Shown piece by piece: positions 38,091 through 49,659 of a DNA stretch of 64,000 nt. Source of the stretch: an uncultured Bacteroidota bacterium (lineage in GTDB: Bacteria > Bacteroidota > Bacteroidia > Flavobacteriales > Flavobacteriaceae); NCBI GenBank assembly GCA_902546725.1, contig CACCLB010000001.1:1-64000 (forward strand), in the 5' to 3' direction. Each line of letters opens with the position of its first letter. Position 1 is the stretch's first letter. The notes beneath the pieces were generated by a model, which worked only from the letters and a program-made list of their open reading frames with translations, searched no databases and was not told the DNA's origin. The translations under genes were made by a program, and so were the position numbers.

Positions 38091-39374
38091 ATGAAAAAAA
38101 ATTATTTATTGCTTATCATTTTGGTTATAGTTAGTTGTACCAAAGACGAACCTACAACAATTATACCACCAACATCTAATGAGCTTCCGCCTCCATCGTT
38201 TAGCATACCTCCTGTTTCACTTAATCTTGAACCTGACTTCGAGTACAATGGCGGAGATATAACTATTGCCAGTAAAGAGGATTTTCTCAAATATAGAGGT
38301 TTAGTAATTAAAGAAGTATCAGGAGACTTCAATATTACGGTTGATTGGGCCTTTTTAGATGGTTCTAGCGATGATCCTAGTAGTGTAACCAAGAATATCG
38401 AGATTATAGAAGGAGACGCCACAATCGTTACTAATAACGAATTTTCCATGGAAAGTCTTGTGCGAGTTGATGGAGTTTATTCGGTAGAGGGTCATGATAT
38501 TCGAGATGATAATCTCTTGTATGCTAAAAAAATTAAATTGAGTTATGAAGAAAATTATGAGGTTAAACCTGTTTATTCTGATGGAATTGAAATTAATTTA
38601 AATGTAGGTAAATGGAAAATTAAAAAATCAAAAGAATTTGAAGGTATAGCATCCAAATCGCAAAATTCTTCAAAAGTTAACAATTTGAACTCCATTTCTA
38701 TTGTTATGTATCATACATCTTTATTAGCTAATGCTATTTTTGATGCTACCAATCTTCCTACAGTAAGGGATGTTGCGCCTGAAATGCCAGAGACAGCTAT
38801 CTATCCAACCTTCACACAAACTGAAAGTACACTAGATGGTGTTATTGAATCTGAATCAGTCGAACAAATAACTTTAGGTGGCCATATTAAGGTCAATAAA
38901 ATAATTTCGAATTCTTTAGAGATATTAGCAATAAACAACACCGCACTGGATAACTTAACGGTTCAATCAACTTCAGTAAAAGAAATTTCAATGCCATTAT
39001 TAACAACAATAACAAGCCTAATCTTAGATTGTAAAATAGTTAAAGAATTTGTTGCCCCTAAATTAGTTTCTTTAGATACTTTAACATTAACTGGTATTTC
39101 TGTGGTCACTTTAGAAGCTGTTGAAACAATTGGAACGCTTACTGTTGTTAGTGGGAATGAAATAAATTTACCAAGTGTTGAGACAATTTCCACTTCAACC
39201 TTACCATATAATGTTAGATTAAATGCATCTTCTGCTTCGGGTCTTTCTTCAGGACCAACTGGTGGAGGAGGCGGAGGGACTTCATCAAGTTCATCCAGCA
39301 GCAGTTCATCATCATCCAGCGATGATCATAACTCTGGAGGTGCTGGTCATAATTCTGGAGGAACGGGTGGATGA
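38091..39374 (+). CDS. Surface lipoprotein with beta-rich repeats and Ser/Gly tail
   Basis: A 427-residue protein with a lipoprotein signal (LVIVSCTKDEP, Cys at residue 16) and a proline-rich linker. Residues about 60-150 hold a receptor-L-domain-like start (ITIASKEDFLKYRGLVIKEV); about 265-375 is a run of strand-turn units rich in Leu, Ile, Thr and Val (LEILAINNTALDNLTV, LVSLDTLTLTGISVVTL) suggesting a solenoid. The end is low-complexity: a Gly run, 13 Ser in a row, and two copies of HNSGG(A/T)G. I do not recognise a named family. It stands alone between the tRNA and the polysaccharide locus, with its own promoter and terminator. Confidence 0.7.
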   Translation: MKKNYLLLIILVIVSCTKDEPTTIIPPTSNELPPPSFSIPPVSLNLEPDFEYNGGDITIASKEDFLKYRGLVIKEVSGDFNITVDWAFLDGSSDDPSSVTKNIEIIEGDATIVTNNEFSMESLVRVDGVYSVEGHDIRDDNLLYAKKIKLSYEENYEVKPVYSDGIEINLNVGKWKIKKSKEFEGIASKSQNSSKVNNLNSISIVMYHTSLLANAIFDATNLPTVRDVAPEMPETAIYPTFTQTESTLDGVIESESVEQITLGGHIKVNKIISNSLEILAINNTALDNLTVQSTSVKEISMPLLTTITSLILDCKIVKEFVAPKLVSLDTLTLTGISVVTLEAVETIGTLTVVSGNEINLPSVETISTSTLPYNVRLNASSASGLSSGPTGGGGGGTSSSSSSSSSSSSSDDHNSGGAGHNSGGTGG

Positions 39375-39402: not shown

Positions 39403-39422
39403 GGGGGTCTTTAGCGACCCCT
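39403..39422. terminator. Bidirectional Rho-independent terminator
   Basis: GGGGGTC, six-base loop TTTAGC, GACCCCC, with an A/T-rich run on both sides (TTTTTTAA before and TTTTT after). It ends the lipoprotein gene on the plus strand and overlaps the stop codon region of the YjbH C-terminal-half gene on the minus strand. Confidence 0.8.
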
Positions 39423-40595
39423 TTTTGATGCTCTTAAAACCCCTTTTTTTAAAATTTCAGGGAAATAATCCGTCATTCTACTTATAATATTATCTCCTTG
39501 ATAATAAGGAAGACCTACTTCTGAATCAGATCTATAGTTATAGGGAAGATAAAATCGATCGTAAAACTTGGCTCTTACAGGTAGTTTCCTACCGTATTTT
39601 CTAATAGGTAATGGCAAACTAAAATCAAAACCAACCATTGTTCCGTAATTCGTTTTTTTATAAAAAAGCCCGATAAATCGTTGACCTGAAAATCTTCTTA
39701 TTTGCGCTGTATAACCCACATCCCCTAAAATATAAGAACCATATCTAAAAGTAAGATCCATATCATATTTATTAATTCTATAGGTAAGGTCTGAGAAAAA
39801 ATCTAATCTTAGATCTGTATTTAAATCGTAATATAAAATTAAATCTTTATTGAGTCTTCCGAATCTAGTTAATCCTAAATGAATATTCATTCGTAATTTA
39901 TCTTTATAAAGAAACTTTAGGTAATTGGTTGTAATACCAAGTCTATTGAAGGTAAAAAAACCAAAATTGAAATTTAAAAAACTTGATTTATCAATTTTAA
40001 AGTCATTAGATAACCTTAAAAGCCCAACTTGAGGCTCCTTATAACCTAAATCATCAAATTCTGGAACATTATAATAAGTTTCAAAATTAACCCCTTTTGA
40101 AAGGTCGGTACTCAGATAGGGTTGAAAATTAACCCTCTGACGAATAGGATTATCAAAGTTTCCCAGAGTATAATCCAACTGAAACCTGAGGCTCAAGTCA
40201 GTTTTGAAATACGAATTATTTAACGTTTTTTCAGTATTGTATTTTTCATCTGTAAAATCAATTGTAGCTACAGATAAAAAATCTTCAATTGTACTATTTT
40301 TAGTTTTAAGTTTAGCGTAGTCACGAGAAGTAAATCTCATCTCTACAATCGGTACTCCTTTATTTAGAATGACAACTTTTGCATTAGAAGCCTTTGTACT
40401 TATATTAATTAGCTCCAAGACTTGATAAAGACCATCTGCAGGAAATCTATAAAGGTTGTCTTCGTAGAACAGTGTATATTGATCTTCTTTATAAAATTCT
40501 TGTAAATTTTCAAATCCATGTTCTTGAAGAACTTTTACGTTTTGCGAGTTTGCAAATTTAAAAAACAGAAGAGCTATAAAAGCATATTTTATCAT
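39411..40595 (-). CDS. YjbH-like exopolysaccharide protein, C-terminal half
   Basis: A 394-residue secreted protein (signal peptide ending in FANSQ). The first part, VLQEHGFENLQEF and RFPADGLYQVLELI with VVILNKGVPIVEMRF, matches the middle domain of YjbH-type proteins; the rest is a run of amphipathic beta strands with many aromatic residues, suggesting an outer membrane barrel. YjbH is an outer membrane protein of exopolysaccharide loci, normally a single protein of about 700 residues. Here its N-terminal barrel is a separate gene at 48955-49659. The gene is divergent from the main operon and starts 235 bases from it. Confidence 0.65.
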   Translation of the reverse strand: MIKYAFIALLFFKFANSQNVKVLQEHGFENLQEFYKEDQYTLFYEDNLYRFPADGLYQVLELINISTKASNAKVVILNKGVPIVEMRFTSRDYAKLKTKNSTIEDFLSVATIDFTDEKYNTEKTLNNSYFKTDLSLRFQLDYTLGNFDNPIRQRVNFQPYLSTDLSKGVNFETYYNVPEFDDLGYKEPQVGLLRLSNDFKIDKSSFLNFNFGFFTFNRLGITTNYLKFLYKDKLRMNIHLGLTRFGRLNKDLILYYDLNTDLRLDFFSDLTYRINKYDMDLTFRYGSYILGDVGYTAQIRRFSGQRFIGLFYKKTNYGTMVGFDFSLPLPIRKYGRKLPVRAKFYDRFYLPYNYRSDSEVGLPYYQGDNIISRMTDYFPEILKKGVLRASKRGR

Positions 40596-40773
40596 TAGAT
40601 AGGTATTTAAATAAATATGCTCATTATAAATGCGGTCTCACCTGTATTATTATTTAATTGTAATAATAAAATAATTAATATTTAATATTATAATCTTTTT
40701 ATACTTACTATTTTATTTCGTTTCATTTACAAAAAACTGAATTACAGTAGTTTGTTGTAGAAAATCTTAGTTA

Positions 40774-40804
40774 TTGCAATATTATTACATATCATCTATA
40801 TTCT
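40774..40804 (+). promoter_or_regulatory. Possible promoter of the polysaccharide operon
   Basis: TTG at 40774-40776, 20-base spacer, TATATTCT at 40797-40804 (two mismatches to TAnnTTTG), 25 bases before the start of the UpxY-like gene. The 234-base gap is otherwise very AT-rich; I see no clear ops-like element in it. Confidence 0.3.
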
Positions 40805-40829
40805 TTTCTTTTTAATAGAATTTAATATT

Positions 40830-41285
40830 ATGAAATGGTATTTAATTAAAACCAAAAATAAACAAACTCTTAAGGCTTACGATTATTTTAATCTTTTAGG
40901 CATAGAATGTTATGTCCCTTGTAAGACTAATATAAGTAAAAGAGGCAACAAACGAATTCCCCTTTTAAATGGGTATGTATTTATTTCGTTTAACGAAACC
41001 ATAGATTATGATCTGGTTAATTTAAATCCATACTCTACAAGTATTATAACAAAAAACGGTCAACCCATTTTGATTCCAGAAGAACAAATGCGCCTTATGA
41101 TCGATCATATAGAATCTAGATACAGTCATAAAGATTTTAAGTCACGTAATGTTGGTGATTTTATTGAAATTAACACGGGCTCTCTAAATGGCCTAATGGG
41201 TCAGATCATTGAGATTAGAAATAATAAAATTTATTTACAAATTGAATCTTTATCTGCACAGGTAGAGATTCAATACGCTAAATAA
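40830..41285 (+). CDS. UpxY/NusG-type transcription antiterminator
   Basis: A 151-residue NusG-family protein. Residues 1-100 form the NGN domain (MKWYLIKTKNKQTLKAYDYF, then IPLLNGYVFISFN) and about 108-140 a KOW motif (GDFIEINTGSLNGLMGQIIEI). In Bacteroidota, UpxY-type proteins stand first in capsule operons and allow RNA polymerase to transcribe the long operon to its end. The position here, first gene before Wza- and Wzz-like genes, fits. No UpxZ partner is seen next to it. Confidence 0.85.
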   Translation: MKWYLIKTKNKQTLKAYDYFNLLGIECYVPCKTNISKRGNKRIPLLNGYVFISFNETIDYDLVNLNPYSTSIITKNGQPILIPEEQMRLMIDHIESRYSHKDFKSRNVGDFIEINTGSLNGLMGQIIEIRNNKIYLQIESLSAQVEIQYAK

Positions 41286-41337: not shown

Positions 41338-43593
41338 ATGAAAAAAATCATCTTTTTATTTACTTTATTTATGAGCTTTCATTCATTTAGTCAATCTAAT
41401 GATGAGCTGTTTAATTATTATTCTCAGATGAAGTCACAAGGCTTTACTGATACTCAAATTAAAGATATAGCACGCTCGAGAGGGTACAATATTGATCAGC
41501 TTTTAAAAGGGTCAAACAACAACTTAAAAAATAACTCCAGTATAAATACACTAGAAAAAGATCCTACTCTTCAAAGTGATTATTCAAATTATGTTAAGCC
41601 TAAGATAGATTCAACTTCTAATGAAAACGTTTTTGGAAGTCACTATTTTAAAAATATTCGTTTTGATTTTTCACCCCAGGTTAACATTGCCACTCCCTCA
41701 AACTATCAATTAGGACCAGGAGATGGCTTAATTATCAGTTTGTGGGGTGCATCACAGGCCACTTATCAACTTGAGATTGATAGAGAAGGAAAAATCCTTA
41801 TCGATGGCTTAGGCCCTATTTATTTAAATGGATACACACTTCTTGGAGCTAAAGCAAGAATAACAAATGCACTCTCTAAAATTTATATGGGATTGAATAG
41901 TAAGATCGAACAGGAAAAAGTTAATTTAGACCTTAGTTTGAGTGCTACACGAAGCGTATTTGTTTCTATTATAGGACAGGTAAAAGCACCGGGGATTTAT
42001 ACATTAAATGGTATGTCTTCCCCCATTCATGCTTTGTACGCTGCTGGAGGGATTAGCTCACAGGGAAGCTATCGAAATGTTCAGCTGGTTAGAAAAGGTA
42101 AAGTGATTGACACAATTGATCTCTACCAATATTTTAATGCCGGGGATTTATCTGATCTGTTTTTAAAAGACCAAGATGTGATTCGAGTTCCCTATTATCA
42201 GAATAGAATTACCCTAGAGGGAGAGGTTAAGTTTAGTGGAAGCTTTGAGCTAAAAGAAAATGAAACTTTAGACGATTTAATTCAATACAGTGGTGGATTT
42301 ACTCCCAAGGCTCAAAAGGATAATTTTTTAATCTCTCGAATCGATAGTTCAAGTTATACTTCAATTTCCACTAGTAAAAGTAATTTTAATCTAGAGTCAG
42401 GAGACAAGGTATTTGTTTATTCGATCTCAGATCAAGAAAATCAAAAAGTGAGTATTTCTGGTGAGGTTCTTATTCCTGGTTCTTACAGCCTTTCTAGTTT
42501 AGAAACAATTCAGGATTTAATTAAAGTATCAAAAGGTTTTACTAGGGACGCATACCCCTTGTATGCAAGTCTATACAGAAGACATAATAATGCAAAAGAA
42601 ATGCTACTTAGTGTAGGCTTAGATTCAAAGGGTTTTGATATAAATTTAAATGAACCTCTCCAAGAACAAGACTCTTTGGTGGTTTACAATAAAAATCAAT
42701 TTATAGTAAAAGATAAAGTACAGGTTTTAGGTAGGGTTTCAGAGCCTGGACTTTATGATTTATATCAGGCCATGAGTGTACAAGATCTTTTGGGTCAGGC
42801 CCAAGGGATCACTATAGCAGAAAATAAAATAACTATAATTGTTTCCTCTAGGGATGAAATTCAAAACGACTATAAGAAAAGGTTTGAATTCGACTCATTT
42901 GATTTAAAACAACTTGCAACCACTTATCTAAAGCCTGGAGATATAGTTTCTGTTTCAGAAAAAAATCAGGTTGAATCAATCTCAATACAAGTACAAGGTG
43001 AGATTAAAAATCCTGGTACTTACATACAAACTAAAAGGGAAAACAGTTTGAAAAATCTTATTGAGCTCTCGGGAGGTTTTACTGATTTTGCAAGCGAAAA
43101 TTCTATTTACATCAAAAGAGAGTTGGCTATACAAACAAATCAGCTTTTAAATGATAGTTTAGTTTTACAAGATCAAAAAAATGAGACTAAATTTACTTTT
43201 ATACCTGTGGTCGATTTGAATGAGGCTTATTTTTTTCAGGATAAAGACCAGCTTATAATTGGAAAAAAATCTAATGACATTACCATAAATGGAGAGGTAA
43301 TAAAGCCTTCAATAGTAAAATTTAAAGGCTCTGGTTTAAAGTTCTACTTAAAAAAAGCTGGTATAAATTCTAATGGAAGTAAAAAAGAGATTATAGTAAT
43401 CTATCCCAACAAAGACGTGAGTGCCACAAAAGATATTTTGTTTTTTAAAAAATATCCTAAAATCACTCCTGGAAGTGAAATTCTGGTTGGAAAAAAACCC
43501 GAGCGAGCAAAAATTAGTACTCAAGAACTCATAGGTATTTCTTCTGGCCTTTCTACCCTAGTAATAGTGCTTTCTAGTCTTTTATCCCCTTAA
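41338..43593 (+). CDS. Wza-like polysaccharide export protein with SLBB domains
   Basis: A 751-residue outer membrane polysaccharide exporter: signal peptide (ending FHSFSQ), a short helical N-terminal part, the Poly_export domain at about 125-210 (YQLGPGDGLIISLWG), and then a series of SLBB domains, each beginning with a V-x-G-x-V-x-x-P-G type strand (ISGEVLIPGSYSLSS, VLGRVSEPGLYDL, VQGEIKNPGTY, INGEVIKPS). The C terminus has a hydrophobic helix (about 728-748). Its length and many SLBB repeats are usual for Bacteroidota. It works with the Wzz-like protein that follows after five bases. Confidence 0.88.
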   Translation: MKKIIFLFTLFMSFHSFSQSNDELFNYYSQMKSQGFTDTQIKDIARSRGYNIDQLLKGSNNNLKNNSSINTLEKDPTLQSDYSNYVKPKIDSTSNENVFGSHYFKNIRFDFSPQVNIATPSNYQLGPGDGLIISLWGASQATYQLEIDREGKILIDGLGPIYLNGYTLLGAKARITNALSKIYMGLNSKIEQEKVNLDLSLSATRSVFVSIIGQVKAPGIYTLNGMSSPIHALYAAGGISSQGSYRNVQLVRKGKVIDTIDLYQYFNAGDLSDLFLKDQDVIRVPYYQNRITLEGEVKFSGSFELKENETLDDLIQYSGGFTPKAQKDNFLISRIDSSSYTSISTSKSNFNLESGDKVFVYSISDQENQKVSISGEVLIPGSYSLSSLETIQDLIKVSKGFTRDAYPLYASLYRRHNNAKEMLLSVGLDSKGFDINLNEPLQEQDSLVVYNKNQFIVKDKVQVLGRVSEPGLYDLYQAMSVQDLLGQAQGITIAENKITIIVSSRDEIQNDYKKRFEFDSFDLKQLATTYLKPGDIVSVSEKNQVESISIQVQGEIKNPGTYIQTKRENSLKNLIELSGGFTDFASENSIYIKRELAIQTNQLLNDSLVLQDQKNETKFTFIPVVDLNEAYFFQDKDQLIIGKKSNDITINGEVIKPSIVKFKGSGLKFYLKKAGINSNGSKKEIIVIYPNKDVSATKDILFFKKYPKITPGSEILVGKKPERAKISTQELIGISSGLSTLVIVLSSLLSP

Positions 43594-43597
43594 TAAA

Positions 43598-44671
43598 ATG
43601 AATACTAATAATCCTCATTTACAGGAAGACGAAATTGATTTAGTTGCTCTTTTAGCAAAACTTTATCAGAAGAGAAAATTTATAATAAAGACTATAGTGA
43701 TTTTTGCTGTGGTAGGAATTTTTGTAGCCTTGGTCTCTAAAGAGGTCTTTAGGGCAAAAGGAGTTTTTGTTGTTCAGAATTCAGAAAAACAAGTCAGCTC
43801 TTCCATCAGTGGTTTAGCGGCCCTAGCGGGGGTAAACTTACAGTCTGAAGCCATGGGGGATATACCCCCTTCCTTATATCCTAATATCGTCGGAGGTATA
43901 ACATTTAAACTTGCTCTATTTAGTACCGTATTAGATTCTTCAGGGTTAACCTATAAAGATTATTTGCTCTCTAGGGCAAGTTCACCAGTATCCCTATTAA
44001 AAAAATATACTATCGGTATTCCTGGTTTACTTGCAAAAAATTTTCGATCAACCAGTCAGCAAAACACTCAATCTTCGGGTGGTCTTAGGCAACTTAGTGA
44101 GCAGGATTTTGAGCTAACTGAACTTTTAGAGGAACTGATTCAGGTAGAGGTTAATGAAAAAGAGGGCTTTATTTCCCTCAGTGCTATGGACCAAAATCCC
44201 AAATATGCTGCAGTGGTAGCGGCAAGAGCTTTGGAATTGCTTCAGGATTTTATTACTACCTACAAAACAGAAAACGCCAAAAAAATTCTATCCTATGTCG
44301 AAAAGCAGTATGAATTAAAAGAGCAGCAGTATTTGGAGGTTCAACAAGAGTTAGCTGAATTTAAGGACCAAAACAAGAACATCTCAACGGCTGTATTTGA
44401 ATCAAATTTACAGAAGATACAAACTCGTTATGATTTGATATACGGAGTTTATCTGGAACTTTCCAAACAACTAGAACAAGCTAAATTGCAAGTAAGTAAG
44501 GATATTCCTAATATATCAATGATTGAGTCGATTTATGTTCCTAATAAAAGAGAAAGCCCCAAAATAGCCCTTATACTAGTAATATATACTTTTTTGGGTT
44601 TTGTACTTTCTTGTGGTTGGGTTTTGGTCAATGAACCTTTACAGCAAATCAGTCGTCAGGTTAGAAATTGA
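43598..44671 (+). CDS. Wzz-like polysaccharide chain-length/copolymerase protein
   Basis: A 357-residue inner membrane protein with two membrane helices (about 33-52 and 327-346) and a periplasmic domain with a coiled coil (about 225-290). The N-terminal LVALLAKLYQKRKFI is typical of Wzz/GumC-type proteins, which set chain length in Wzy-dependent polymer synthesis or export. There is no cytoplasmic tyrosine kinase domain at the C terminus, in contrast to Wzc. The stop overlaps the end of the convergent gene by 11 bases. Confidence 0.85.
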   Translation: MNTNNPHLQEDEIDLVALLAKLYQKRKFIIKTIVIFAVVGIFVALVSKEVFRAKGVFVVQNSEKQVSSSISGLAALAGVNLQSEAMGDIPPSLYPNIVGGITFKLALFSTVLDSSGLTYKDYLLSRASSPVSLLKKYTIGIPGLLAKNFRSTSQQNTQSSGGLRQLSEQDFELTELLEELIQVEVNEKEGFISLSAMDQNPKYAAVVAARALELLQDFITTYKTENAKKILSYVEKQYELKEQQYLEVQQELAEFKDQNKNISTAVFESNLQKIQTRYDLIYGVYLELSKQLEQAKLQVSKDIPNISMIESIYVPNKRESPKIALILVIYTFLGFVLSCGWVLVNEPLQQISRQVRN

Positions 44672-46067
44672 AAATATAGAAGAACCAGCCATTGTATATT
44701 TTGATATCTCCCTTGAGTGAGATTTCTTTTATCCTTTTATCAATCTTATTCTTGCTGAAAGCTATTTTTAATTTGAAACCGGAATCATTAGATTTATTTT
44801 CAATTTTTCTCTTTAATTGATCGATTACCTTAGGGGCATAAATTTTGATATAACTATCTGAATATTCATTAAAAACATCAAGTTCAAAAATTTCATTTAA
44901 TTGTGAAGTCGGTTTTATCATTAAAAAATCAATTATTTCTGATTCCTCTACTGTTAGGGGAATAATTATATTTTTAAATGTGATGTATTGATCTTGTTTT
45001 AAGATTTGTATGTTTTTAAATTTTCTAATATTAAAGAGTCTTATGGTTATAAATAGGAATAAAGCAATAAGAGCTAATCGTAGGATGTTTTTTCTAGTTT
45101 TTTGTGTAACATAAACTTTTTCAAGCAGGTCTTTAGGCTCAGAAAAATTTTCTAATAAATCTAATAACGCTATATTTTTAACTTCAAATTTATATTCTTG
45201 ATCGATGTCTAAATAATAAAGTGTGTCCTTGTGTACAACCTTAAAATGATAATCACTAATTTGCGATACTCCTTGGAGGAATCTATATTTTAAAAGTTCA
45301 AAATCAACAAGATAAATATTGTCTTTTTTAAAAAACAAACTTCTATTATCATCTAGATGAATAATATTTTTTTGATTGTTATTAAAAAAGGTAAAATCAT
45401 TTTTAAGAGTACCTATTTTACTGAACTTTTTATCACTGAAATCAAAAGACATCAAATCCAGTAAATGGTTATTGGATTGATACAAATTTGAGTTTGTACC
45501 GCCTAGAAAATAGACTTGATTTCCTTTTTTATGATGAATTGAGTGTCGTCTAACTTCTGGCTGATAGGAATCTTTATCGATAATAACTTTATTCCACTGT
45601 TTATTTTCAAAATCGAATTGAATTACAGCATTTCTTTCTTCAAAGAATCCAGAACCAAAAAAAGAATAAATAGAGTTTTGGTGAAATATCATATTAGCTC
45701 CTAAAAAAGCTTTGCTTTGTTCTGAAAAGTCATTTCGAATTAGTGAGTCCTTTTTAATAGAAAAGACTTCCCCCATGTCTGATCGTACAAAGAAATTATT
45801 ATCGTTATAACCCTTAACAATTAAATAGTTTTTTGAATTGAAATCATTTAAGTCGTTTGATTTTTTTATAGAAAGCGGATTTAAAAAAAAACTATCCTTA
45901 TCAATTTTTACGATACTATTGTTAAAAATTAATTGTAAATTATTGCTGTCTGAAGAAAAAAACCTGAGTGAATCAACATCAAATTGGGTTTGATTGATCG
46001 GTTTATTTTGACTAAAAGCAAAGCAAAGAGTTCCTATTACCAGTAATGAAAAGTATACTAATTTCAT
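44661..46067 (-). CDS. Membrane protein with propeller-like periplasmic part and winged-helix-like cytoplasmic part (first of divergent pair)
   Basis: About 468 residues from the ATG at 46067 (MKLVYFSLLVIG, signal peptide to AFSQ); an ATG at 46085 adds six residues and is less likely. Residues about 25-310 contain Kelch-like beta-propeller blades such as SIYSFFGSGFFEE...VIQFDFENKQW and LMSFDFSDKKFSKIG. One membrane helix at about 328-346 follows, then a cytoplasmic domain of about 100 residues (LTVEESEIIDFLMIK, IDQLKRKIEN, GWFFYI) that resembles an OmpR/ToxR-type winged helix. So it may be a membrane-bound transcription factor with an outside sensor. It lies antisense inside the polysaccharide locus, overlapping both neighbours. 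I know no named family for it. Confidence 0.6.
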   Translation of the reverse strand: MKLVYFSLLVIGTLCFAFSQNKPINQTQFDVDSLRFFSSDSNNLQLIFNNSIVKIDKDSFFLNPLSIKKSNDLNDFNSKNYLIVKGYNDNNFFVRSDMGEVFSIKKDSLIRNDFSEQSKAFLGANMIFHQNSIYSFFGSGFFEERNAVIQFDFENKQWNKVIIDKDSYQPEVRRHSIHHKKGNQVYFLGGTNSNLYQSNNHLLDLMSFDFSDKKFSKIGTLKNDFTFFNNNQKNIIHLDDNRSLFFKKDNIYLVDFELLKYRFLQGVSQISDYHFKVVHKDTLYYLDIDQEYKFEVKNIALLDLLENFSEPKDLLEKVYVTQKTRKNILRLALIALFLFITIRLFNIRKFKNIQILKQDQYITFKNIIIPLTVEESEIIDFLMIKPTSQLNEIFELDVFNEYSDSYIKIYAPKVIDQLKRKIENKSNDSGFKLKIAFSKNKIDKRIKEISLKGDIKIYNGWFFYIFNF

Positions 46068-47404
46068 ATCGGGCAATATACACAATACTACTGATCTTTT
46101 TTAGAATCTTTTTTACATCAGCCCAAGAGGAATTTGAAATAGAAAACTTTCTTTTTGATTCCAATGAGTATAAATTAGTAAAATCTTCAAATGATAGAAT
46201 TCTGCTTTTAGGTAAAAAAAACTACGTAGATGTTTTTCAAAATAAAATTATACCTTATTCAAACCTTTTAGACTCTCTTTTTTTAGACACTGAATTTAAA
46301 TATTTTAATTATGTAAATATTGATGATAAAATTCATCTAATAAATCCAGGTGGCGGCTATGTATTGGAGTTTGATTATAAATCCCTAAAACGCATTGATA
46401 ATTCGAGTAACTTAAGAGCTTATTATCAATCTGAGACCTTTTCATACAAGGGAGATATTTATCAATTTGGAGGCTATGGTTTTTTCAAATATAATGCTCA
46501 ACTTTTGAAATTTGATTTCAGAATTAGAGATTGGATTTTAGTTGATTTGATCCTTGATCAAAATTTTGGTTTTGTGGATCCACTAGTTTTAGTTTATCAA
46601 AACAAACTTTTAATTTATTCAGAGAAGGTAATTAATAATTTTTTTGGTCAAAAGCAAAGTAATCCTTTTGTTTACTCTTACGATTTAGATTCAAAAGAAA
46701 TTGATAAGATTAAATTTGATTATAAAAAATTTGATTTTTTATCTGGAGATCCAATGTTTAAAATTAGTAATCGTTTCACATTTAAGGGTTTGTTTTATAT
46801 CCCCAACTATTCCAATCCAAAGGAGCTTTACAGCTTTGATTTTATAAACAACCAGCATCAAATAAATACACTATCTGCGCCAATTGTATCTGAGGGCAAT
46901 GTTGAAATACTAGAGGATCAGTTATATTATATCTCAAAAGTACAAAGTACTAATCTGTCATATTTAGCTAAAAGTAGTATTTTAAATACTACTGATATGG
47001 GCTCTATTAGATCAGCCTTCTATTTAATTTATGTTATAGTGGCATTATTGTTCTGTATTAGTTTTTATCTGTTTAGAATAAAGAGAGTATTTCTTCTTGA
47101 GGGTAAAAATTTAAAAAGGGGACTTAAAAAAGTAAGATTAGATTATGATCAGGTCTATTTTTTAACCAAGCTCGGTGAGGAAAAAACAGTTAACAACGCA
47201 GATTTAATACGTTATTTTGATCGTGATTCTAAGAGTTATGATCTAAATATAAAGAGAAAAAATAATATGATCTCTACTCTTGAATTTAAAATCGAATCTG
47301 AATTTAAGACCCATTTATTTGAAAAAGTCACCTCTCCCATTGACAAGCGTCAAGGGATTTATATATTAAAAAAGAAACTTACCCTAGCTGATAAAAAGAG
47401 CTAA
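46046..47404 (+). CDS. Membrane protein with propeller-like periplasmic part and winged-helix-like cytoplasmic part (second of divergent pair)
   Basis: A 452-residue paralogue of the preceding gene, transcribed the other way. A signal or anchor helix (residues 10-26, ending TSAQ) leads into a propeller-like region (about 30-315; DIYQFGGYGFFKYN and LLKFDFRIRDW align with the first paralogue), one membrane helix (about 324-344) and a cytoplasmic domain (about 362-441; LDYDQVYFLTKLGEE, STLEFKIESEF, DKRQGIYIL) of winged-helix-like layout. Its start lies inside the coding start of the opposite gene: the two ORFs overlap by 22 bases. A role as signal-responsive regulator of the surrounding polysaccharide genes is inference. 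Confidence 0.6.
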   Translation: MKSILISYRAIYTILLIFFRIFFTSAQEEFEIENFLFDSNEYKLVKSSNDRILLLGKKNYVDVFQNKIIPYSNLLDSLFLDTEFKYFNYVNIDDKIHLINPGGGYVLEFDYKSLKRIDNSSNLRAYYQSETFSYKGDIYQFGGYGFFKYNAQLLKFDFRIRDWILVDLILDQNFGFVDPLVLVYQNKLLIYSEKVINNFFGQKQSNPFVYSYDLDSKEIDKIKFDYKKFDFLSGDPMFKISNRFTFKGLFYIPNYSNPKELYSFDFINNQHQINTLSAPIVSEGNVEILEDQLYYISKVQSTNLSYLAKSSILNTTDMGSIRSAFYLIYVIVALLFCISFYLFRIKRVFLLEGKNLKRGLKKVRLDYDQVYFLTKLGEEKTVNNADLIRYFDRDSKSYDLNIKRKNNMISTLEFKIESEFKTHLFEKVTSPIDKRQGIYILKKKLTLADKKS

Positions 47405-47433: not shown

Positions 47434-48108
47434 ATGTATCCTTTTGTAAAAAGGACCTTAGATGTATTGTTATCTATCATAGGGATACTACTAAGTGCAC
47501 CTTTACTTTTGACGGCCATTTTTTTATTGATCTTCTCTGGAGAATTTTCTCCTGTCTACTTGAGTTATAGAGTGGGTAAAGAGGGGCGATTATTCAGGAT
47601 GTATAAACTCCGAACCATGAGTTCTAAAAAGCCCTCTAAGAGTCCTCTTACAGGTTACAATGACAATCGAATCAGCTTTATAGGGCGTTTTTTACGATTT
47701 TCTAAAATTGATGAACTGCCACAGTTTTTCAATATTCTAAATGGAGATTTGTCTTTTGTTGGGCCCAGACCAATGCTTCCTGAGGTATTTATGTATTATT
47801 CCAAATCGGTTCAAAAGACCTTAAATACGATACGTCCCGGAGTAACGGGAATTGGCTCAATTGTCTTTAGAAATGAGCAGGGTCTTTTTCAAAAAGTAAA
47901 AGGCTCTTATGAGGCATTTTACAAACAGGAGATCGCTCCTGTAAAGGCGGACTTGGAGCTATGGTATATAAAGCAATACAGTTTTAAGGTTGATTTTAAG
48001 ATTTTAATCTATACGGTAGTGGCTGTGGTTTATGGTCAGGTAAAGTCTATTGACAGGCGCTTTAAGAATTTACCTTCTATCGAGATTGTCAAGCAGGGTT
48101 TTGACTAG
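47434..48108 (+). CDS. Initiating sugar transferase (polyprenyl phosphate phosphotransferase)
   Basis: A 224-residue bacterial sugar transferase of the WbaP/PglC/WcaJ C-terminal type, which transfers a sugar 1-phosphate from a nucleotide sugar to undecaprenyl phosphate, the first step of repeat-unit synthesis. One N-terminal helix (about 12-34) is followed by the catalytic domain: KLRTMSS, FLRFSKIDELPQFFNILNGDLSFVGPRP and the RPGVTGIGS segment. It is the short monotopic form without the large N-terminal membrane domain. It follows the propeller gene by 29 bases. Confidence 0.9.
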   Translation: MYPFVKRTLDVLLSIIGILLSAPLLLTAIFLLIFSGEFSPVYLSYRVGKEGRLFRMYKLRTMSSKKPSKSPLTGYNDNRISFIGRFLRFSKIDELPQFFNILNGDLSFVGPRPMLPEVFMYYSKSVQKTLNTIRPGVTGIGSIVFRNEQGLFQKVKGSYEAFYKQEIAPVKADLELWYIKQYSFKVDFKILIYTVVAVVYGQVKSIDRRFKNLPSIEIVKQGFD

Positions 48109-48145: not shown

Positions 48146-48958
48146 ATGATTGGAATAATAGGACAAGGATTTGTTGGAAATGCAGTTTATCAAAAGTTTA
48201 AGAATTATTTTGATGTACACACTTTTGATTTAGATACTGCTAAAGCAAATGCCTCGTATGAAAAAGTAATTAAGAATAAAATAATTTTCATTTGTCTTCC
48301 AACACCAATGAATCTTGATGGATCTTGTAATACTTCGATAGTTGAGGGTGAAATTGAAAAGTTAGATAATCTTGGTAAATATACCATAGTTGTAAAGTCA
48401 ACGATAATACCAGGGACCACAAAAGCGTGGAATAAAAAGTACAACTCTGATATTGTATTTAATCCTGAATTTTTAACTGAGAAAAATGCCGTTAAAGATT
48501 TTGAAAATCAAAAGCATATTGTTTTAGGAGGTCCTAATCAAGCTACTGAAAAAATTAGAAAAGTCTTTGAAGTTGTTTTTGAAAAAGCTAAAATCTCTTG
48601 TGTAGAAGAAACAGCAGCTGAACTTTTAAAATACTACTTAAACACCTTCTTGGCTGTTAAGGTCTCCTTCGCAAACGAGATGTATCTGTTATCTCAAAAA
48701 TTAGAAGTGAACTATGATAATTTGCTTTCAATGGTTTTAGAAGATCAGCGGATAGGGAAGACGCATTTAAATGTTCCAGGCCATGATGGTGATTTTGGAT
48801 ATGGAGGACACTGTTTTCCTAAAGACACAAAGGCCTTAATTAAATTAACAGAAGATTTGGGTGTAGTTAATCATGTTTTGAAAGCTACAGAGGCTACGAA
48901 TGCAAAAGTTAGGAAAAATAAGGACTGGGAGAAAATGGAAGGATGGACTGTATTATGA
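48146..48958 (+). CDS. UDP-sugar 6-dehydrogenase, short form without C-terminal domain
   Basis: A 270-residue protein of the UDP-glucose/GDP-mannose dehydrogenase family, which oxidises the C6 of a nucleotide sugar to a uronic acid. The N-terminal GIIGQGFVGNAVY (NAD site), FICLPTPM, VVKSTIIPGTT and VFNPEFLTE are present, then the central domain with YYLNTFLAVKVSFANEM and the catalytic Cys in GYGGHCFPKDT. The usual C-terminal UDP-binding domain of about 120 residues is missing, the protein ending soon after the Cys. Short forms exist in phage and surface loci; whether this one is active is open. The start of the next gene overlaps its stop. Confidence 0.75.
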   Translation: MIGIIGQGFVGNAVYQKFKNYFDVHTFDLDTAKANASYEKVIKNKIIFICLPTPMNLDGSCNTSIVEGEIEKLDNLGKYTIVVKSTIIPGTTKAWNKKYNSDIVFNPEFLTEKNAVKDFENQKHIVLGGPNQATEKIRKVFEVVFEKAKISCVEETAAELLKYYLNTFLAVKVSFANEMYLLSQKLEVNYDNLLSMVLEDQRIGKTHLNVPGHDGDFGYGGHCFPKDTKALIKLTEDLGVVNHVLKATEATNAKVRKNKDWEKMEGWTVL

Positions 48959-49659
48959 GAAAAATATTACTCTTAATAATTTTATTAATCTCTTGGAAAG
49001 GATTTTCTCAATCTACAAATGGGATGTCAGGGCTTATTCATATACCCTCGGCCAGGATGCTTGAGGATGGGCAGCTCGTTTTAGGTGCGGCTTATATTCC
49101 TAAGCCTTATTTTTTTAGATATGGCCGAAACGAAAATCCTGGATTAAATACTTATATAACCTATGGAATTTTACCATTTTTAGAAATTATGTTTAGGTAC
49201 ACTCATGAATTAAATTTACCAGTAAACCCTCAAACTAAATATTTTCCAGATCGAATGCTTGGTTTTAGAGGAGGAATTATTAAAGAAAAAAAATATTTGC
49301 CTGCTGTAGTTATTGGTTTTCATGATCCATCATCTCTTATAGGTACTGCTGATGGGGCAACTAATTATGCTGCTTCTTATTTTGTGCTAAGTAAAGTTTT
49401 AAAATCAGATTTAGGAAAATTTGATTTTTCTATAGGTTACGCCCAAGATTTTTTTGATTTACGTTTTAAAGACATCGAAGGTCTTTTTGGAGGGGTGTCT
49501 TTTACTCCAAAACTTTATGATAAAATCAATTTTATAATTGAAAACAATTCCAAAGGGATTAATACCGGAATAAAAATGATTTTCTTGTCAAGATTCAATT
49601 TGATGCTTGGACTTTGGAATCTTGATAAACCTACTTTTTCCTTTAACTATTTGTTTTAA
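48955..49659 (+). CDS. YjbH-like exopolysaccharide protein, N-terminal half
   Basis: A 234-residue secreted protein. The ATG at 48955 overlaps the upstream stop (ATGA) and begins directly with a signal peptide (MRKILLLIILLISWKG to FSQS); a start four codons earlier is less likely. NGMSGLIHIPSARMLEDGQLVLG and LPFLEIMFRYTHE are the hallmark start of YjbH-type outer membrane proteins, and the strand pattern up to the final FSFNYLF indicates a small barrel. It stops where the first barrel of YjbH would end; the missing second half appears to be the gene at 39411-40595. Confidence 0.7.
   Translation: MRKILLLIILLISWKGFSQSTNGMSGLIHIPSARMLEDGQLVLGAAYIPKPYFFRYGRNENPGLNTYITYGILPFLEIMFRYTHELNLPVNPQTKYFPDRMLGFRGGIIKEKKYLPAVVIGFHDPSSLIGTADGATNYAASYFVLSKVLKSDLGKFDFSIGYAQDFFDLRFKDIEGLFGGVSFTPKLYDKINFIIENNSKGINTGIKMIFLSRFNLMLGLWNLDKPTFSFNYLF

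Follow-up and report, generated by a model that had tools for sequence, protein, structure and literature searches.

Kelch-propeller membrane proteins with an OmpR-like cytoplasmic domain: a candidate pair of regulators at polysaccharide loci of Flavobacteriaceae

ToxR-like regulators, among them ToxR, TcpP and CadC, combine sensing and output in one protein and are defined in PMC5430869 by a sensor domain in the periplasm that one membrane helix connects with an OmpR-type domain in the cytoplasm. A similar layout is predicted for two proteins encoded head to head in a 64,000-nt stretch from an uncultured Flavobacteriaceae bacterium (assembly GCA_902546725.1, contig CACCLB010000001.1, positions 1-64,000; this whole stretch is referred to as the window). 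Gene A (44661-46067, minus strand; ATG at 46067, 468 aa) and gene B (46046-47404, plus strand; ATG at 46046, 452 aa) each encode a signal-peptide-like start, a Kelch-type propeller, a membrane helix and an OmpR-like winged-helix domain. AlphaFold2 (AF2) models, hydropathy and an OmpR profile comparison point to the ToxR-like layout in both, the sidedness being deduced. In CadC the DNA-binding domain is N-terminal (residues 1-107), whereas in A, B and their aligned relatives it is C-terminal, behind the predicted signal peptide. A and B also differ from ToxR-like regulators in having a Kelch propeller as sensor and no Pfam match to Trans_reg_C. They are best called a variant of the membrane-bound one-component regulators, with the domain order reversed relative to CadC, and would widen the known designs of this class.

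Hybrid two-component systems and SusR-type proteins are the usual explanation for how Bacteroidetes sense external sugars. The propeller sensors of this phylum (hybrid two-component systems and propeller-LuxR proteins) also place a periplasmic propeller and a membrane helix before a C-terminal cytoplasmic regulator output, using Reg_prop/Y_Y_Y propellers with kinase or LuxR/AraC outputs. In contrast, A and B have a Kelch-type propeller and an OmpR-like winged helix. The first-pass annotation of the window knew of no named family with this architecture, and none was found in Pfam, NCBIfam or the open-licence literature searched. A family leading directly from propeller to winged helix, with a predicted operator, offers a testable control circuit for the surface coat of uncultured marine flavobacteria. 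The locus as a whole resembles the capsule operons of Bacteroides described in PMC7819879, in which a specialised NusG paralogue such as UpxY heads the polysaccharide operon and prevents early termination. Compared with the operons described there, this locus adds the divergent pair of propeller regulators, of which one lies antisense inside the run of genes.

We consider that A and B are membrane-anchored one-component regulators of an undescribed flavobacterial family and that, in the conserved form of the locus, they act on the promoter of a polysaccharide operon led by nusG (UpxY). This proposal has about an even chance of being correct.

The description of A and B as paralogous membrane proteins holds: BLASTP showed homology (E 2e-6 over 60 aa) and both are common to one profile family, with 18% identity. 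The propeller occupies residues about 25-320 of A (45108-45995, minus strand) and about 30-312 of B (46133-46981, plus strand). Pfam Kelch models matched A (E 6.9e-9) and, weakly, B (E 2.2e-3), both under Pfam's cut-offs, and Kelch_KLHDC2 was matched by 63 of 64 members, including A and B (E ≤ 1; best 5.4e-13). AF2 models made from 64 sequences had a mean predicted local distance difference test (pLDDT) score of 86.6 for A and 85.6 for B, and gave both proteins an N-terminal helix, a beta propeller, a single membrane helix and a cytoplasmic domain. Among the 50 Foldseek rows listed per model against PDB, most were named Kelch domains and the remainder were designed SAKe propellers and a few others. 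Judged by repeats and by modelled fold, the propeller-like sensor part that had been noticed from the sequence is a Kelch-type beta-propeller.

Such a propeller might instead be a periplasmic sugar-modifying enzyme similar to the mutarotase NanM/YjhT, the tail being a mere anchor; weak matches to the YjhT mutarotase model occur in 25 of the 64 members (best 3.1e-6), and matches to the NanM model in 22. However, a NanM/YjhT mutarotase gives a full-length match above the curated cut-off, while the NanM match in A covers residues 123-218 only and reaches 13.5 bits where the cut-off is 416, B is unmatched, and the cytoplasmic domain is conserved, with a D-x-R that is invariant in 64 of 64 members. 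An enzymatic role is very improbable.

As described earlier, each protein has one membrane helix, at residues 322-353 in A (45009-45104, minus strand) and 318-346 in B (46997-47083, plus strand), seen in both the AF2 models and hydropathy. Among 114 sequences, a clear hydrophobic span precedes the tail in 113 and the N terminus is hydrophobic in 108; residues following the membrane helix carry a net positive charge in 111 (median +8), compared with a median of -2 on the propeller side, the exceptions including truncated or over-extended open reading frames (ORFs). The N-terminal hydrophobic helix of A and B suggests a putative signal peptide and, together with the charge distribution, a periplasmic propeller.

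The cytoplasmic domain comprises residues 355-452 of A (44712-45005, minus strand) and 348-449 of B (47087-47392, plus strand). DSSP assigned the tail of both models the order b-b-b-a1-b-a2-a3-b-b, the strand after a1 being short, a3 long and the hairpin last. This order is close to the topology given for the OmpR-type domain of CadC in PMC5430869, which has four leading strands where the tails of A and B have three. The winged-helix-like layout sketched in the first-pass annotation agrees with this topology, and QGIYIL of B does contain the second hairpin strand; GWFFYI of A (residues 461-466), named there as part of the closing hairpin, falls behind it (434-439/447-452).

Profile searches gave further indications. 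Comparison by hhalign of the tail profile with an OmpR-type domain profile, built from sequences of related genomes, aligned 40 columns with a score of 32 (probability 80; E 1.5e-5, counted as a single comparison), the N-terminal sheet, a1 and a2 being in register. Controls scored at most 16.3 (200 column shuffles), 8.7 (reversal of either side) and 13.3 (propeller segments). When a profile of 53 tails was searched against all PDB sequences, the MarR-type repressor AdcR was matched (whole-sequence E 2.3e-4), as was the OmpR-type protein 2k4j (E 4.9e-3), with further weak matches to several OmpR- or MarR-type regulators. The invariant D-x-R of the family (44733-44741 in A, 47342-47350 in B) was aligned with a D-x-R of AdcR, which we take to be in the AdcR wing.

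Several results weigh against a winged helix in the tail. The recognition helix a3 and the wing lie outside the confident part of the hhalign alignment, and a forced global alignment had a probability of 25. The best single stretch of AdcR alone had an E of 0.03, and non-regulators that look like chance (a kinetochore subunit at 0.016, and gp120) scored nearly as well in the PDB search. The Foldseek rows shown cover the propeller only. No convincing helix-turn-helix model match to the tail was found in Pfam or NCBIfam: Trans_reg_C (PF00486) was absent from the full Pfam tables of A and B at E ≤ 10, and neither it nor any helix-turn-helix family was among the 25 of 61 families listed for the 64 members at E ≤ 1. 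NCBIfam gave weak helix-turn-helix matches to CueR in three members, MsvR in two (best 4.1e-4) and a Sar regulator in two. Compared with the OmpR/PhoB-type domain of PF00486, the family shares the model topology and the profile register of sheet, a1 and a2, and differs in its invariant D-x-R behind the helices, in having no receiver domain and in showing no model match among those listed. Because model topology (sheet-a1-a2-a3-hairpin), the profile-profile match with its controls and the weak PDB profile search agree, an OmpR-like winged-helix domain is supported in both proteins, and DNA binding by the tails is predicted. Neither of the outcomes named beforehand as refuting, a predicted structure lacking the propeller or a DNA-binding fold, or homologues never found paired or near polysaccharide genes, was observed.

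The pair recurs near polysaccharide genes in relatives, as had been anticipated. Seventeen loci besides the window hold it (A runs off the contig in one, L151), always in the order A (-), a WecA-like Glycos_transf_4 gene (GT4, +) and B (+). One conserved pair locus, L148, comes from the marine single cell AG-916-G20. Outside the 17 are L150, which has a broken A, and L146 and L158, which are cut by contig ends. The A-type gene of L150 (5459-6859) is in three ORFs, by decay or sequencing error, while B, GT4, nusG and two copies of the leader motif described below are present. A NusG paralogue heads the pair locus, and purD is on its far side, wherever the sequence reaches. Wza and Wzz are found between NusG and A in some loci and are missing there in L084, L143, L144, L152, L153, L158 and L159.

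A quick tree was made from 114 rows. In it, all 18 B-position rows grouped as one clade, with a support of 100 in the Shimodaira-Hasegawa-like approximate likelihood ratio test (SH-aLRT), and the 18 A-position rows of pair type formed another together with L146 (SH-aLRT 100); three rows labelled as A-position by rule (L093, L113, L130) were placed elsewhere. Because A-position and B-position rows form separate clades, the tree indicates that the pair consists of two old paralogues and is not the outcome of repeated fresh duplication.

Spacing within the locus is also conserved. The overlap of A with wzz is 11 bp in all 11 related loci measured (10 loci and L146). Of 18 loci, 14 have 16-38 bp between the starts of A and GT4; two give -40, probably because the start of A was called too early, one gives 383 (GT4 split in two ORFs) and one was uncalled. 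Because there is so little room, either promoters overlap coding sequence or GT4 and B are read through from nusG across antisense A. Transcription of a gene run across an antisense gene is the layout called a noncontiguous operon in PMC7154746, and the conserved antisense position of A makes it a natural candidate for this layout in Bacteroidota.

The constant company of a WecA-like transferase permits another view, in which the tail is a protein-interaction module and A and B form a membrane scaffold or checkpoint that holds the initiating transferase or Wzz while the propeller reads polymer, without contact to DNA. It would fit the persistence of the transferase linkage in the seven loci that have no Wza or Wzz between NusG and A, as well as the failure to find a convincing helix-turn-helix model match. 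A scaffold is less easily reconciled with a tail that is basic in 111 of 114 sequences, with its D-x-R aligned with that of AdcR and with the OmpR profile match. Moreover, no polysaccharide marker gene lies within four ORFs of 63 of the 112 relatives. A scaffold is unlikely.

A 24-bp motif, about RATA-N3-A5-N-GAAC-YWTT, recurs across pair loci in the leader of nusG. With the pattern used first, 9 of 13 leaders contained 23 overlapping matches (Markov shuffles: mean 0.36, max 4). Of the four leaders missed, L148 and L149 have near matches, and L154 and L156, initially shortened by a nusG start called too early, have sites found in the matrix scan. GAAC is kept in 19 of 19 listed sites, which partly follows from site choice. 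A matrix from the six sites of one clade scored a mean of 11.6 in the five leaders of the other clade, which none of 500 column-shuffled matrices reached (max 9.0). With cross-clade matrices, all 11 pair leaders scored above all 26 control nusG leaders (11.0-24.3 versus at most 10.5 or 7.8), the margin being wide in eight or fewer leaders and smallest in L145 (11.0 versus 10.5). The controls were the non-pair loci among 30 delivered for 66 nusG matches, and include the leader of the window itself (L243) and L218, where an unpaired member is close by. A 16-site matrix gave at most 8.2 in control nusG leaders; four pair leaders, whose own sites had entered the matrix and which therefore score high by construction, gave 22.8-28.4. 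NusG proteins of nine motif loci are 39-67% identical, so their leaders have had time to diverge.

Tandem copies of the motif have a spacing of 52 bp in three loci and of 63 bp in one (L047 and L145 being one locus), that is, five or six helical turns; coordinates from the matrix scan give 52 in L158 and 53 in L146. L158 also has a third, weaker match, some 101 bp farther upstream, that does not fit the spacing, and L082 has the distal site only. A TAnnTTTG-like box follows the proximal GAAC at a distance of 24-25 or 31-34 bp (TATATTAG in L143 and L153; no such box in the L149 nusG leader), in AT-rich leaders where boxes of this kind may also turn up by chance. TAnnTTTG is given as the flavobacterial -7 consensus in PMC9723704. 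Because GAAC precedes a -7-like box, the motif appears to take the place of the -33 element. By eye, a second short block, about ATCAgn-TTTTA, is seen roughly halfway between the tandem copies in, for example, L145, L084, L142 and L150.

The motif is a candidate operator and probably the site of A and B in the conserved loci, as judged from its distribution. Several points argue the other way. As it was first spotted by eye in the same leaders, counts there are not independent, the comparisons between clades being cleaner in this respect. The motif loci are of one related lineage, and common descent adds to the link between motif and pair. The exact pattern was no commoner than a reversed control in five whole genomes, which suggests no wide regulon for the motif; this pattern was too strict and missed several listed sites. 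Another regulator could bind there.

A and B could thus be regulators while the motif belongs to a different transcription factor, the pair acting elsewhere, for example at the A/GT4 start region or on unlinked genes. Two observations agree with such a division of roles: the window has the pair without the motif, and solo relatives adjoin many different genes. The motif itself keeps closely to the pair, however, as it was seen in none of the 25 nusG leaders of other genomes in the matrix scan, and two matrices run over 1.63 Mb of fetched loci had 14 of their 17 and 21 of their 34 matches, respectively, in nusG leaders of pair loci. These counts include the building sites and duplicate records, and the remaining matches are mostly inside genes. 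That A and B act elsewhere is rather unlikely.

For the favoured action at the nusG leader, the following course of events can be proposed. A and B would each be exported through a signal peptide, with the Kelch-type propeller in the periplasm as presumed sensor of sugar, polymer or envelope state; each protein would cross the membrane once and end in a cytoplasmic OmpR-like winged helix. The winged helices would bind the motif in the nusG leader, probably as a pair, and may activate the operon rather than repress it because the motif replaces the -33 element. With A antisense inside the gene run and B closing it, the regulators would be tied to their own target. It might be speculated that the UpxY-type factor also helps transcription across antisense A. 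A more detailed form of this proposal is tentative: an obligate, probably heteromeric pair of ancient Kelch-propeller/winged-helix paralogues, one encoded antisense in the controlled operon, would detect a signal in the periplasm, from polysaccharide or envelope, and occupy tandem sites, spaced by five or six turns, in the -33 region of the NusG/UpxY-led promoter; a single circuit would then set transcription start, read-through and the initiating transferase.

The window holds a highly diverged copy of the pair, judging from sequence identities of at most 24% for A and 25% for B with any relative in the tree. In the first tree (114 rows), window A and window B joined each other together with other long rows. 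After 12 rows, mostly long-branched or oddly composed, had been dropped with the first tree in view, window A joined the A clade (SH-aLRT 90) and window B the B clade (SH-aLRT 93). These placements are weakened by three results: neither support reached the starred level, a constraint making the two window proteins sisters was not rejected (approximately unbiased test, p-AU 0.285), and one placing window B with the A clade was not rejected either (p-AU 0.204). Position, orientation and an identical 11-bp overlap favour the same ancestral arrangement in the window, GT4 having been lost and a Bac_transf gene lying behind B instead. The window also has the pair without the motif in its leader: the best score was 1.6 in the nusG leader (40596-40829, plus strand; where the operator-like motif is positioned in related loci) and -0.7 in the A/B start region, compared with 19-29 for listed sites. 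The first-pass annotation had proposed these two regions (46040-46090 and 40596-40829) for binding by the cytoplasmic domains; lacking the motif of the related loci, they have no sequence support. Its proposal of a pair of membrane-bound one-component regulators agrees with the architecture and with the recurring pairing at polysaccharide genes, control of the locus staying a prediction.

By profile search (E ≤ 1e-6), 33 of the 397 genomes covered from the window's family contain a member, at least 5 of these 33 matches being partial, weak or propeller-only. In the genus, 6 of 38 genomes have a member, the window included, some of them partial. A search for the Wzz of the window across the genus, aimed at an empty version of the locus, found it in only 1 of 38 genomes, that of the window, so the cassette is accessory in the genus. 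One conserved peptide, used to scan public genomes, retrieved 63 named loci, in hosts that include Maribacter, Muriicola, Robiginitalea, Lutibacter, Lutimonas and many marine single cells; as this was a single pattern, fractions from it are not population frequencies. No family member was found on the viral contigs searched, and a full-alignment search for related loci yielded no conserved stretch. The member set was reduced to 122 rows by removing L164 and pieces shorter than 330 aa, and to 112 distinct members besides A and B by removing duplicates. Also left out were weak matches in G100 and G162 and an 875-aa ORF in G123. L051/G117 was dropped after the profile search, looking by its sequence like a homogentisate-dioxygenase-type protein, and initial matches in G029 and G070 were rejected, their loci (L045 and L043) having no member.

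A polysaccharide marker gene is present within four ORFs of 49 of the 112 distinct relatives. The 63 relatives with no such marker count against a role confined to polysaccharide genes, with the limit that 24 of them are within 4 kb of the end of the fetched stretch, where markers may be out of view; because of these 63, the family probably reaches beyond this locus type. Solo members of the Lutibacter type (L106, L107, L108, L110, L112, L116, L117, L135, L138) are followed by a similar same-strand gene of 136-264 aa, which is a possible target outside polysaccharide loci. Muriicola and Lutimonas, too, carry a solo member. Tandem same-strand duplicates occur away from polysaccharide markers in L124, L132, L141 and L097, followed in the first three by a similar convergent gene. 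In a Saprospiraceae genome, L164 (6136-11372) has four tandem weak relatives (36-61 bits), perhaps an outlying branch.

Pfam also confirmed the setting of A and B in the window, in a polysaccharide locus between Wzz and the initiating transferase. On the plus strand are the genes for a NusG paralogue, UpxY-like by position (40830-41285; PF02357, E 1.6e-14), a Wza-type export protein (41338-43593; Poly_export and SLBB), the Wzz chain-length protein (43598-44671; PF02706, E 3.3e-8) and, downstream of B, an initiating sugar transferase (47434-48108; Bac_transf). The start regions of A and B overlap head to head by 22 bp (46046-46067), a feature absent from the earlier description, and wzz and A overlap tail to tail by 11 bp (44661-44671, TTA..TGA). 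The mechanically called ORF of A begins with TTG at 46085, making it 6 aa longer than the ATG version. In the nusG leader of the window, the search for direct repeats gave a single two-copy 14-nt family, whose second copy is inside nusG. Sigma-70 and terminator scans showed no clear excess over shuffles (28 versus 33.5 and 3 versus 2.3, respectively). A third A/B copy was not found in the genome of the window (1.70 Mb searched, 75% complete). A second NusG paralogue of the same kind is present in this genome outside the window (G000:C6:5117-5575; E 1.0e-12). The regulator part of the locus is bracketed by genes for YjbH-like exopolysaccharide proteins at 39411-40595 (minus strand; match just under the Pfam cut-off) and 48943-49659 (plus strand; over the cut-off). 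Adjoining the polysaccharide locus, the gene at 38091-39374 (plus strand) encodes a putative lipoprotein that includes a long run of serines and ends in a glycine-rich tail.

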